Assembly (NCBI GenBank): GCA_030549795.1
Contig: JAUQQO010000054.1
Coordinates: 1-64,000, forward strand
DNA: 64,000 nucleotides
From: Pseudomonadota bacterium
Lineage (GTDB): Bacteria > Pseudomonadota > Alphaproteobacteria > Geminicoccales > Geminicoccaceae
Direction: 5' to 3'
In this document: in pieces, positions 28,072 to 31,914 of the stretch
Position numbering within the stretch: position 1 is the first letter of the stretch
Layout: the number at the start of each line of letters is the position of its first letter
Notes under the pieces: model-generated
Told to the model about the DNA's origin: nothing
The model's input: only the letters and a program-made list of their open reading frames with translations
The model's database searches: none
Made by a program: the position numbers and the translations under genes

Positions 28072-28506
28072 ATGCAACGCTGGGTCGCAACTGTCTTTTG
28101 TGCGGTGGCGTTGCTGTTCGCTCTCGCCGAACGACCGGCGCTCGGCGAGGAGAAACCCACGCTCGTCGTCAACCTCACCAGTGACGACGTTTGGACCGAG
28201 CAAATGGCGCTCGCGTTCGCCCGCAACATTCAAGACGACGGCTATCCCGTGGTCGTGTTCTTGAATGTGCGCGCGGTCACGATCGCCAACACCAAGGTCC
28301 CACAGCATCGGGGCGCCATCACCGGCAAGACAGCCGCCGAGCTGATCGCCGAGATCATCGAAAAGGGCGGGCGCGTGTTCGTCTGCCCAGCGTGCACCAG
28401 GCAGGCCGGGCTCGAGCTCGCGGACCGACTTCCCGGTATCGAGCCAGGAGGTCCCGAGTTCCGGCGCATCCTCATGGCTCCGGGAACGCGGGTGATCAGC
28501 TTTTGA
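28072..28506 (+). CDS. Exported DsrE/F-like protein in the copper operon
   Basis: A 144-residue protein with a signal peptide (WVATVFCAVALLFALAERPA) and a DsrE-type Rossmann-like domain (PTLVVNLTSDDVWTEQMALA). A CPACTRQAG segment near residue 110 puts Cys residues at the position used for sulfur transfer in DsrE/TusD relatives. Family members are mostly cytoplasmic, so export is unusual. It lies between ycnI and copCD, overlapping copCD by 1 nt (TGATG), so it probably acts with copper; a CPAC site could bind Cu(I). Confidence 0.75.
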   Translation: MQRWVATVFCAVALLFALAERPALGEEKPTLVVNLTSDDVWTEQMALAFARNIQDDGYPVVVFLNVRAVTIANTKVPQHRGAITGKTAAELIAEIIEKGGRVFVCPACTRQAGLELADRLPGIEPGGPEFRRILMAPGTRVISF

Positions 28507-30161
28507 TGCGCGGGCCGGATAAGGGGGCGAGCGGTTGCCGCCGCTCGTCCCTTTTGCGCATCGGGGCATCCTTGCTTGCGGCGGTGCTGAGTTGGGCGCT
28601 CGCGATTCCGCTTAAGGCCCACGCGCACGCGGTGCTCCTCGAAAGCGCGCCGGCGGCAGGTGCCCGCTTGTCCACCTCGCCGCCGGAGTTCCGCCTGCGC
28701 TTCAACGAGCCGGTTCGGCTTCTCGCCGTGCGCTTGCTCAACGCGCGCGGCGAGGAACACGTGCTGCAGCCGCGCGCGAGCCTAAGCGGGGAAGAGCTCG
28801 TCTTCGTTCCGGCCGAACCCCTACCAGCTGAGCTGTACACACTCAGCTGGCAGGTGGTCTCAGACGATGGCCACCCCGTAGGCGGCTCGCTGCGCTTTGC
28901 TCTTGGCGTCGATCCGCCGCCGGCTGTGGCGCATGAGAGGTGGGCTTGGCCCACGCCGTCGTTTGCGCTCGTGGTGCGGCCGCTGTTGCTTACGAGCATT
29001 TTCGCGGCCACCGGGCTCACGGTGGCGCGGCTGTGGTTCGCGGACGCGCTGTCGACCGCGACCGTGCGGGCGAGCGAACGCGTGCTCGTGATGGTCGCGA
29101 GCCTTGCCGTTGTGAGCGCCTTTGCGCAGGTGCTGGCGCAGGGCTTCGCGCTGGTCGGCGAGGACATCGAAGGGGTGTTGGCGGCGCTCGCCGAGGGGCT
29201 GGCCTCGGCCTCGGGGGTGAGCGCCCTCTCGGCCGCGGTTGCCGTGCTCGCGAGTGTGAGCGCTCTGATCATGGGGCCCGGTGGACCCGGTGGGGTCGTC
29301 GCCGCCCTCGCAGCGATCGCAGGCACAGCTGCGCTCGCCTTCGCCGGCCACGCCATCACGGCGCCGCCGCGCGTCCTCGGGATCGCAGCACTTGCCGTGC
29401 ATCTCGTGCTCGCGGCTCTGTGGTTCGGAGCACTCCTGCTCCTGTGGCGGGCGACGCGTCATCTCAAGCTCGCGCAACTCTCGATACTGTTGCGACGGTT
29501 TTCTTCGCTCGCCTTGCCGCTGGTCATCGTACTTCTCGCCTGTGGTCTTTTGCTCACGTGGCGCCAGCTCGCCAGCTTCTCAGCGCTTTTCACAACCGCC
29601 TACGGTTTGATCTTGAGCGCGAAGGTCGCAGCCATAATCGCGGTACTGCTCATCGCGCTTCACAACCGCGTGGTGCTCACACCCGCGCTCGCCTGCGGCG
29701 ATGCGGGTGCGCGCGCGCGGCTTCAGCGCAATCTCGTCCTCGAGCTGTTGGGCCTCGCGCTCGTGGTGAGCTTGGCCTCGGCGCTCAGCTTCACGCCACC
29801 GCCAAGGGCGCTCGCGCAAGCACAAGCAGCGGCAGCGCGCGCACAGCTGCGCGAGGTGGCCGACGAGGCGGGGCGGCGCGCACGCATCAGCCTGCAACCG
29901 GGCCAAGTAGGCTGGAACCAGATCGCGGTGAGCTTCCTCGACGCGGTGGACAAGCCACTTAAGCCCCTCGCAGCAGAAGTTTTGATTGAATCGGAAGCGC
30001 AAGCGATCGAGCCAACGCGCGTCGTGCTCACCGCCCAAGGAGAGCGTTGGGTGCACAACGGTCCCGAATTGAGCCTGCCCGGCTCCTGGCGGATCGTGGT
30101 CGAAGCACTTCTCGATCCGTTTACCAAAGCGCGCTTTGAGGCCGAATTCGCGCTTAAATGA
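28506..30161 (+). CDS. copCD: CopC-CopD fusion, copper transport protein
   Basis: A 551-residue fusion. After a signal peptide comes a CopC domain (about 40-140): HAHAVLLESAPAAGARLSTS carries the first His ligands, and SDDGHPVGGSLRFALG the last. A CopD membrane domain with about eight helices follows (150-435), including AFAGHAITAPPR and LVLAALWFGALLLLWRATRH. The C-terminal 110 residues form a periplasmic beta domain. CopCD is thought to bring copper into the cytoplasm. It converges on the rtcA fusion gene with a 10 nt gap. Confidence 0.92.
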   Translation: MRGPDKGASGCRRSSLLRIGASLLAAVLSWALAIPLKAHAHAVLLESAPAAGARLSTSPPEFRLRFNEPVRLLAVRLLNARGEEHVLQPRASLSGEELVFVPAEPLPAELYTLSWQVVSDDGHPVGGSLRFALGVDPPPAVAHERWAWPTPSFALVVRPLLLTSIFAATGLTVARLWFADALSTATVRASERVLVMVASLAVVSAFAQVLAQGFALVGEDIEGVLAALAEGLASASGVSALSAAVAVLASVSALIMGPGGPGGVVAALAAIAGTAALAFAGHAITAPPRVLGIAALAVHLVLAALWFGALLLLWRATRHLKLAQLSILLRRFSSLALPLVIVLLACGLLLTWRQLASFSALFTTAYGLILSAKVAAIIAVLLIALHNRVVLTPALACGDAGARARLQRNLVLELLGLALVVSLASALSFTPPPRALAQAQAAAARAQLREVADEAGRRARISLQPGQVGWNQIAVSFLDAVDKPLKPLAAEVLIESEAQAIEPTRVVLTAQGERWVHNGPELSLPGSWRIVVEALLDPFTKARFEAEFALK

Positions 30162-30171
30162 CGCGCGCGTT

Positions 30172-31914
30172 TCAATCGAGGCGCAAAAAGGGAAAGCGTG
30201 CCCGCTCCGCGCGATCGAAGGCGGCAACACCTGCCCGCTCGTCGACGATCTCGACCACGAGGATGACATCGACATCGTCGAAGGCGATGCGCCCGGGGGT
30301 GCCGCGCGCCGCAAGCGCTTGCAGGAGCCGCTCGTTGAGTGTCCGCTCGAGCTCGTGCCCGGAGAGCGCTTTGCCCGGTCCGCGCTTGTGCACCCGCACG
30401 TGGAAACTCTTGCCGGCGAGCCGCGGCAGCATGGGCTCAAAGGCGGCGAACAGCCGATCCGCCGCGTGCTCGAGCGGCCCGAGCTCGAAGGCCGCATCAA
30501 GCGGCACAAGACGCGAGATGAAGTTGAGGATCCCGGGCTCGGCGGCGATCTGGGCGGCGAGCGCTTCCGCGACCGCGCGCGGATCGTCGACCGCCATCAC
30601 GACCACATTGTAATAGGGGGTTTTCACGACTTTGCCGAAACGCCCGAGCATGGCGCGTGCTTCCCGCCAGCCCTCGGCGTGGGCGGTGGCGACGATGTTC
30701 CAGGGCACGGCAGCGATGGCCGCGGGCGGGCGGGGTTGCTCTGGGGCGGTCACCCGCTCGCGCACCTGCCGTTCGGCGCCCGCGGCTTCACCGGCACCGG
30801 CAAGCACGACCGGCTCCTCGCGCGGCTCGGCGAGCGGCAACGCCACGGGTGCCGGCTCGACCTCGACCAGCACGCTTCCATCCTCGCGGTGCTCGAGATG
30901 GACGCGCGCGACGTCGAGCAGGCCCAACAGCCAGGCGCAGGTCTCGAGATGGCCGCTCATCGCCTCGGCGAGAAAGCGCGAGCGCGCGGATGCGAAGGCG
31001 AGCGGCAAGAGCAGTTGATCGGCGAGGTGACGATCGATGACAGCGGCGCCGCGCTCGAAGGCGAGCAGCGCGTGCGCCGCCTCTTCGGCGACGACTTCGG
31101 AAGCCTTGCCCGGAGCACCCAGCGAATCGAAGCCGGCGCGCACATCCTCGTGGTGTGCGATCAGGCACAGCGCTGCCCCCGGCGAGGCGGCGCGAACCCG
31201 CTCGGGGCGGATGGCGAGCGGCACAGCGAGCGGCTCCAAGAGCTTGCGGGCGCGGTCGGCGATGCGCTGGGGGATGTGCGCGGGCAGATTCGCAGCGAGA
31301 GCCCGTCCCTCGATGCGCGCAAGCGGCGGGCGCGTGGTGGCATCGAGAGGCTCGAAGGGTCTGCCGGCGCGGCCGAGGATGCGGGCGTGTACTCGTCCCT
31401 TGCCGAGCGGAAACCAGCCCGAGACCTCAAGTGCGAGTTCGACCACCATGCCGAGGTGGGCGAGCATGGGCGCCCAGACCTCGGCCAGATAGTCGAAGGG
31501 CGGGCTCCAAGGGACGTGGGTCCCGCCTTCGAGCCGCAGTTCGGAGCTGCCGCGGGCGAGCGCGAGGGGGATGGCCACCGCCTGCAGGACGAGGCTCACT
31601 GCCCCGGCACTGCCGCCTGCGCGCGCTGCGCCGACATCGATCACGTAGCTGCCGGCGCGCACCGGGCTTTTGGGGTAAAAGCACAGCCTGCGCGAGCCGA
31701 GCTCGGCCCCCTCGAGCTCGGCATCGCAGAGAGCCGCGAGCGCCCGCACGGCGGTGAGATGCTGCGCGGCAAGGCCGGGAATGGGCCGCTTCTCGCGGAT
31801 CTTGACGATCTCGAGCGCGCGCCCGGTAAGCGCGGCCACCGCAAGCGCGGTGCGCAGGATCTGCCCGCCGCCTTCTCCGGTCGACCCGTCGATTTGGAAA
31901 AGCGCGTCCGCCAT
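30172..31914 (-). CDS. rtcA: RNA 3'-terminal phosphate cyclase fused to a THUMP-like RNA-binding domain
   Basis: A 580-residue fusion. Residues 1-345 are RtcA, which converts RNA 3'-phosphate to 2',3'-cyclic phosphate using ATP: IDGSTGEGGGQILRTALA (8-25), RPIPGLAAQHL (43-53), GGTHVPWSPPFDYL (130-143), HLADQLLLPLA (296-306) and the likely nucleophile His322 in MSGHLETCAW. A Pro/Glu-rich linker (about 355-402) joins residues 404-580, which match THUMP domains: GKSFHVRVHKRG, GHELERTLNERLLQAL, DDVDVILVVEIV, AGV and FPFLRLD. The ATG at 31914 has an AGAGGG ribosome site; the frame upstream is arginine-rich and unconserved. No rtcB or rtcR is in view. The THUMP part suggests tRNA as the substrate. 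Confidence 0.88.
   Translation of the reverse strand: MADALFQIDGSTGEGGGQILRTALAVAALTGRALEIVKIREKRPIPGLAAQHLTAVRALAALCDAELEGAELGSRRLCFYPKSPVRAGSYVIDVGAARAGGSAGAVSLVLQAVAIPLALARGSSELRLEGGTHVPWSPPFDYLAEVWAPMLAHLGMVVELALEVSGWFPLGKGRVHARILGRAGRPFEPLDATTRPPLARIEGRALAANLPAHIPQRIADRARKLLEPLAVPLAIRPERVRAASPGAALCLIAHHEDVRAGFDSLGAPGKASEVVAEEAAHALLAFERGAAVIDRHLADQLLLPLAFASARSRFLAEAMSGHLETCAWLLGLLDVARVHLEHREDGSVLVEVEPAPVALPLAEPREEPVVLAGAGEAAGAERQVRERVTAPEQPRPPAAIAAVPWNIVATAHAEGWREARAMLGRFGKVVKTPYYNVVVMAVDDPRAVAEALAAQIAAEPGILNFISRLVPLDAAFELGPLEHAADRLFAAFEPMLPRLAGKSFHVRVHKRGPGKALSGHELERTLNERLLQALAARGTPGRIAFDDVDVILVVEIVDERAGVAAFDRAERARFPFLRLD

Follow-up and report, generated by a model that had tools for sequence, protein, structure and literature searches.

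The Fusion Gene and Its Locus

The window analyzed here is a stretch of 64,000 nucleotides from an alphaproteobacterium of the family Geminicoccaceae (assembly GCA_030549795.1, contig JAUQQO010000054.1, positions 1 to 64,000). On its minus strand, a frame of 580 codons plus stop is open throughout positions 30172-31914 and joins an RNA 3'-terminal phosphate cyclase (RtcA) to a C-terminal unit of NFLD and THUMP type; the plus-strand reading of the same interval contains no RtcA. The gene, its parts, and its downstream neighbor are as follows:

30172..31914, minus strand: RtcA-THUMP fusion gene, 580 aa (ATG at 31914, stop at 30172-30174)
30853..31899, minus strand: RNA 3'-terminal phosphate cyclase domain, residues 6-354 (Pfam, NCBIfam, Foldseek)
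Within the RtcA domain, minus strand: RTC insert domain, residues 194-285
30949..30951, minus strand: codon of His322, the equivalent of the E. coli RtcA nucleophile His309 (1qmh alignment)
30712..30795, minus strand: disordered tether, residues 374-401, Pro/Glu/Ala-rich (pLDDT of the full-length model)
30175..30705, minus strand: NFLD and THUMP-type domain, residues 404-580 (profile comparison, fold, relatives)
Within that domain, minus strand: ferredoxin-like part at about 404-475 and THUMP core at about 480-567 (limits set by eye from the model)
28191-30161, plus strand: CopC/CopD copper gene, downstream of the fusion gene and convergent with it

By our own reading, a GA-rich stretch, gagagggcgg, precedes the ATG of the fusion gene and could be its ribosome-binding site. 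Upstream, on the side of higher coordinates, are two divergent ABC-transporter permease genes (BPD_transp_1). All four orthologous loci that were read by eye (G001, G002, G004, and G005) have one or more divergent permease frames beside the fusion gene, with one additional frame in between in G004. Because this divergent neighbor recurs in four orthologous loci, the fusion gene looks like a single-gene unit at a stable position, outside any RNA-repair operon; neither rtcB nor archease adjoins it at its locus. The CopC/CopD gene was not recognized by eye beside the fusion gene in the same four genomes.

A Complete Cyclase Domain

The initial annotation had read the N-terminal part as a full RtcA with its catalytic His322 in place, and that reading holds. 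Pfam RTC (3.2e-66 over residues 13-330) and RTC_insert (5.6e-20) both exceed their cut-offs in the window protein, as does NCBIfam TIGR03399 (348.7 bits vs. a cut-off of 250.05), and the narrower NF003246 falls slightly below its own (341.5 vs. 352). By sequence, the PDB relatives of the RtcA part are 4o89 (1e-59) and 1qmh (1.1e-46), and Foldseek with the full-length model retrieves the same two RtcA structures (1.5e-40 and 1.4e-36, respectively). The E. coli equivalents of the active-site residues were taken from the 1qmh alignment. Glu14, Arg21, Arg40, Arg43, Gln51, Asp299, Gln300, and His322, which we take to have catalytic roles in RtcA, are invariant in all six fusions, and the position of E. 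coli RtcA Tyr284 is occupied by His296 in the window protein and by Phe in P. horikoshii. On sequence and model, residues 6-354 are a complete RtcA that keeps the nucleophile histidine, and cyclase activity is predicted for them.

An NFLD-THUMP Unit at the C Terminus

The proposal of a THUMP-like domain at the C terminus had been made from a handful of short motifs, all of which are present in the frame; the longest run invariant in the six orthologues (residues 504-518) falls inside one of them. The search suggested at the time, of residues 404-580 against Pfam THUMP and by structure prediction, gave a divided answer: the predicted structure has a THUMP fold, but the window protein has no Pfam THUMP match (E<=10). 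Scanning the C-terminal 182 residues with Pfam and NCBIfam returned nothing, the ThiI family is likewise absent from the Pfam and NCBIfam scans of the window protein, and the PDB yielded no THUMP chain to a sequence profile built from the six fusion domains (E<=10), whose only match there was a MurF-type ligase at E 0.63. A PF02926 scan of the organism's own genome yielded zero THUMP genes, the model missing the fusion too. Because the window protein on its own has no THUMP match by sequence, the identity of the domain rests on relatives, profile comparison, and structure together.

Profile comparison leads to ThiI. When the six fusion domains were aligned by hhalign with 14 ThiI N-terminal regions from other Pseudomonadota, the match reached 97.6% (E 3.1e-12); a profile that includes two free-standing relatives (described below) reaches, at a best E of 3.5e-9, genes of other Pseudomonadota that we read as ThiI, and a profile of these ThiI-read sequences in turn finds ThiI chains in the PDB (2c5s, 1.1e-22; 4kr6, 1.9e-14). 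Of 31 profile matches outside the window genome, 26 fit the ThiI start pattern and 14 of those entered the ThiI alignment; omitted from the set were L057 and L061 (missed by the pattern), L071 (an implausible antisense frame), and two matches without a locus. One of the two free-standing relatives exceeds the Pfam THUMP cut-off of 20.6 with a score of 22.2, the other giving no match, and among three other fusion orthologues scanned, two stay below the cut-off (19.1 and 17.2) and the third has no match. Against the full ThiI model TIGR00342, an orthologue scores 18.6 bits vs. a cut-off of 264.5, over the THUMP stretch only. ThiI is the nearest family by sequence among those found.

The structural comparison points the same way. 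The domain model, built from six sequences, has a pLDDT of 65.9, and the full-length model, built from ten, has a pLDDT of 87 with both parts confident. Foldseek of the domain model gave 877 PDB matches, ten of them at E<=0.001, and all ten are THUMP proteins (PH1313, the T. maritima ThiI-RNA complexes, Trm14, TrmN, B. anthracis ThiI, and the CDAT8 deaminase); the search with the full-length model returned THUMP entries again, from E 4.9e-7, with weaker EPSP synthase entries. In VIA-align, the first 13 rows are THUMP enzymes (TrmN, Trm14, ThiI, RlmKL, Trm11, and RlmM at the top), with Z of 8.0-11.1 over 122-145 residues, and unrelated rows are single ferredoxin-like folds with Z of at most 7.8 over 62-75 residues. 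PH1313, Trm14, TrmN, Trm11, CDAT8, RlmKL, and RlmM all carry the THUMP domain. For ThiI, the THUMP domain is stated in the title of 2c5s and in the available text of PMC4041423. The THUMP-type assignment is thus upheld by both the hhalign result and the ten of ten Foldseek matches, and extended in fact to an NFLD plus THUMP: judged from profiles and models, residues 404-580 are an NFLD-THUMP unit as in ThiI, with tRNA binding predicted.

According to the available text of PMC4041423, the THUMP and NFLD of ThiI bind the tRNA acceptor stem, and a groove formed by the T102-K109 strand, the V118-N132 helix, and the F133-D144 loop holds the 3'-ACCA end. We compared this groove, in T. maritima numbering, between seven of the eight family rows (the free-standing protein of G117 being left out) and the 14 ThiI rows. 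In the fusion, the strand reads S-F-H-V-R-V-H-K and the helix starts H-E-L-E-R; the positions of F103, V105, and D144 are retained in the family. The K108 position is His in 7/7 family rows vs. Lys or Arg in 14/14 ThiI rows, the A127 position is Glu or Asp in 6/6 fusions vs. Gly, Ala, or Ser in 14/14 ThiI rows, and the G126 position, Gly in 14/14 ThiI rows, is Gly in four of the six fusions and Asn in the window protein. The positions of S123, Y119, K104, and R141 also differ from T. maritima, and none of them is constant in the ThiI rows themselves. The fusions extend the CCA-binding loop by four residues relative to ThiI, with an invariant GTPGR in all six. Homology makes it likely that the unit docks on an RNA 3' end; because K108, A127, and partly G126 differ and the loop is longer, ThiI-like reading of CCA is not assured, and the exact recognition may be different.

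The Pro/Glu-rich linker of the initial annotation is borne out as a disordered tether. Residues 374-401 are the only segment of at least three residues with pLDDT <50 in the full-length model, and the corresponding disordered stretch spans 13-31 residues among six orthologues, with 35-54 residues between the end of the RtcA domain and the WN motif. The 13 disordered residues of the shortest orthologue would limit the reach of the tethered cyclase.

Conservation and Distribution of the Fusion

The fusion is present as the same continuous frame in all six genomes of the genus, which represent six species, one of the genomes being a single contig. Over 15 pairs, pN/pS is 0.24-0.42 for RtcA and 0.16-0.44 for the THUMP domain, and both domains are under purifying selection; in the tether region (residues 355-403), it rises to 0.53-1.11. 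Because pN/pS is high in the tether and low on either side of it, the tether is free to change and its RtcA and THUMP ends are both retained as domains.

The genome survey covered Pseudomonadota, with Alphaproteobacteria as the sampled class. Among the 31 family genomes searched, which are the whole order sample and in which all candidates were scored, the domain is absent from the 25 outside the genus, and five of these carry an unfused RtcA. Across 385 class genomes, the domain was found at E<1e-30 in five, namely three of the genus plus G117 and G213, where it is a separate protein; no RtcA-THUMP fusion was found in the 382 class genomes outside the genus, an absence softer than that in the family search, since only eight first-look candidates were scored in most of the larger genomes. 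Weak class-wide matches made up the other 29 of 34 genomes (E 0.0016-0.09) and were set aside: seven frames were read by eye (helical proteins at L021, L022, and L026, an ATPase, a CusA-like and a CopA-like protein, and an antisense frame), and the remaining 22 were taken as chance. No relative of the THUMP domain was found in the viral contigs and plasmids searched.

The two free-standing proteins, from other families of the same class, are located as follows:

G117, C14:17959-18486: free-standing NFLD-THUMP protein, about 180-200 aa
G213, C111:45703-46233: free-standing NFLD-THUMP protein, about 180-200 aa

Both share the NFLD-THUMP domain of the fusion at 37-40% identity, and neither reaches any NCBIfam cut-off. 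Their genomes both carry RtcA and RtcB; unlike in the fusion, which joins the two parts, the THUMP gene there is separate and lies on a contig other than that of rtcA. RtcA exceeds its cut-off in 17 of 385 class genomes, or 14 of the 382 outside the genus, and the chance that both THUMP-bearing genomes would fall among these 14 is 0.00125, a value that concerns two genomes only, is uncorrected for relatedness, and assumes the same 385 genomes in the THUMP and RtcA surveys, G117 and G213 being large (5.1 and 5.9 Mb). In these 14 genomes, no RtcA frame exceeds 422 aa, too little for a fusion of this kind, and no THUMP gene lies within about 5.5 to 9 kb on either side of rtcA at any of the 14 loci. 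Seven of these RtcA share 35-39% identity with the window RtcA and adjoin RtcB; the other seven, including those of G117 and G213, share 46-55%. Archease-RtcB was seen in four of the latter seven genomes, apart from rtcA in G117, G213, and G017 and beside it in G186.

RtcB, Archease, and RtcR in the Genome

That no rtcB or rtcR lies near the gene, as first noted, is true of the locus, but it would be wrong to picture a genome without the ligase, as archease-RtcB stands on another contig. The genome has one RtcB, preceded by archease and followed by a protein with S30AE and cold-shock (CSD) domains:

L083:7809-8375, own genome, contig 31: S30AE plus CSD protein

RtcB is present in 6/6 genomes of the genus and in 17 of 31 family genomes, with archease beside it in all five genus loci checked (the sixth genome standing outside this count), and RtcR was found in none of the 31 family genomes, the E. 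coli protein being recovered as a positive control. The S30AE/CSD protein follows archease-RtcB in 10/10 order loci examined, from 17 order genomes with RtcB; its domains were assigned by scanning the own-genome protein, and the relatives (L084-L092) were identified by tblastn. This neighbor suggests a link of RNA ligation to ribosome hibernation. In G117 and G213, the sequence examined around RtcB contained no S30AE/CSD protein. A 52% identical S30AE plus CSD relative occurs at L116:4940-5491 in G213, about 2.3 kb from rtcA.

The rtcBA operon of E. coli and Salmonella, which is associated with RtcR, likewise has RtcA and RtcB in one genome. In contrast to that operon, RtcB here belongs to an archease-RtcB-S30AE/CSD cluster on a contig other than the fusion's, and the 31 family genomes yield no RtcR.

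A Proposed Role in tRNA Repair

Taken as a whole, the architecture suggests a repair enzyme steered to broken tRNA by a THUMP-type tail. The RtcA domain would convert RNA 3'-phosphate to 2',3'-cyclic phosphate via adenylylated His322, and the NFLD-THUMP unit would serve as an RNA-docking module, most likely gripping the tRNA acceptor stem and 3' end. The available texts of three papers describe the THUMP domains of ThiI and TrmTS as reading the CCA end of tRNA (PMC4041423; PMC12255305; PMC9957541). If THUMP is on that end, the tethered cyclase would act elsewhere, for example at a nick: the floppy tether would give it access to another 3' end within one tRNA, the 3'-phosphate at a break in the tRNA body, such as one in the anticodon loop that leaves the two halves paired. 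Archease-activated RtcB would then ligate the cyclized end to the 5'-hydroxyl on the partner half. We regard a two-domain RNA repair enzyme of this kind, with a cyclase tethered to the acceptor/CCA end that serves broken-tRNA 3'-phosphates upstream of archease-RtcB, as an even proposition; THUMP-tRNA binding, the broken-tRNA substrate, and the feeding of RtcB are the parts that we infer.

Work in Salmonella, in the available text of PMC7790460, describes a broken-tRNA signal that needs RtcA in truA mutants and does not need it in ruvA mutants. RtcB is reported to ligate 3'-phosphate as well as cyclic phosphate ends (PMC3973293, available text), and because it joins both end types, the cyclase is not strictly needed for ligation and the cellular role of RtcA is unsettled. 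That a whole genus retains a natural RtcA with a docking domain of tRNA type points to a tRNA substrate, and the question of the RtcA substrate becomes directly testable by deleting one domain of the fusion. More tentatively, the protein may be a cyclase dedicated to tRNA breaks and the first enzyme with a THUMP domain to work on an RNA end, with THUMP serving elsewhere in the alphaproteobacteria as a separate partner of RtcA; this further proposal is possible, and we hold it somewhat doubtful.

Three other roles have to be weighed against a cyclase that docks on the acceptor end and works at a break. In the first, the tRNA 3' end held by THUMP would itself serve as substrate: tRNAs truncated inside CCA or ahead of it would have their 3'-phosphate cyclized, so as to mark them or to block exonucleases and the CCA-adding enzyme until they are handled. 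In ThiI, it is the extreme 3' terminus that sits in the THUMP groove (PMC4041423, available text), and the changes near the last adenosine (A127 to Glu or Asp, and partly G126) could reflect a different terminus. Yet TrmTS, per the available text of PMC12255305, does not bind tRNA without ACCA, a terminus gripped by the groove would lie away from the catalytic domain of the same chain, and Glu or Asp at the A127 position would probably be unfavorable to a phosphate, all of which leaves this role improbable.

A second role looks beyond tRNA. THUMP domains occur in rRNA-modifying enzymes too, and the unit could direct the cyclase to rRNA (its 3' end, or a cleaved 16S or 23S strand) for ribosome repair. 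The structural matches include the rRNA methyltransferases RlmKL and RlmM, RtcB adjoins the S30AE/CSD protein in the 10/10 order loci with the G213 relative about 2.3 kb from rtcA, and the available text of PMC12606134 places Rtc in the upkeep of translation-machinery RNA. The nearest sequence relatives of the domain are nevertheless the ThiI tRNA enzymes, the neighborhood of RtcB bears only indirectly on RtcA-THUMP, and the stretches around RtcB of G117 and G213 are without the S30AE/CSD protein; we consider an rRNA target unlikely.

Third, the C-terminal domain might be a general RNA-affinity or dimerization appendage that does no steering. Isolated THUMP is said to bind tRNA weakly (cited in the available text of PMC12255305), and RtcA without THUMP occurs in other genera of the same family. 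Against this, THUMP matches the catalytic domain in conservation (pN/pS 0.16-0.44 vs. 0.24-0.42) and is encoded on its own in two genomes that carry RtcA; we assign the appendage a low probability. Finally, although RtcA and THUMP parts do occur separately elsewhere, a fusion arising as an artefact of frameshift, assembly join, or pseudogene formation (a sequencing frameshift between two genes had been named at the outset as the alternative to one gene) is ruled out for practical purposes by the same continuous frame in six genomes of six species, one of them a single contig, by purifying selection on both parts, and by confident models.

Relation to Known RtcA and THUMP Enzymes

The initial annotation knew of no described RtcA-THUMP fusion, and we found no description of this architecture in the literature searched, subscription papers and domain-architecture databases lying outside that scope. 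With RtcA proper (TIGR03399; 4o89, 1qmh), the fusion has the catalytic and insert domains, the active-site residues, and the fold in common; it differs in about 225 additional C-terminal residues (tether and NFLD-THUMP), in standing alone, and in belonging to a genome without RtcR. With the 4-thiouridine synthetase ThiI (TtuI; 4kr6, 2c5s), it shares NFLD followed by THUMP, the F-x-V-R strand, the Glu-Arg helix, and the loop-end Asp, whereas the further ThiI domains are missing, the unit is C-terminal, His stands at K108 and Glu or Asp at A127, and the loop is longer by four.

The available text of a 2023 review recognizes five types of THUMP enzyme, with no cyclase among them (PMC9957541). If the proposed role is correct, an end-processing enzyme would join the THUMP enzymes, which otherwise are known to target internal bases or riboses. 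A further close parallel is TrmTS (TK1257), a SPOUT methyltransferase with NFLD and THUMP whose report, in its available text, indicates that novel THUMP combinations are still emerging (PMC12255305). Like the fusion, TrmTS combines the unit with a catalytic fold new to THUMP, and it itself requires the CCA end; unlike the fusion, it methylates nucleotide 6 of archaeal tRNA rather than acting in repair (PMC12255305, available text).
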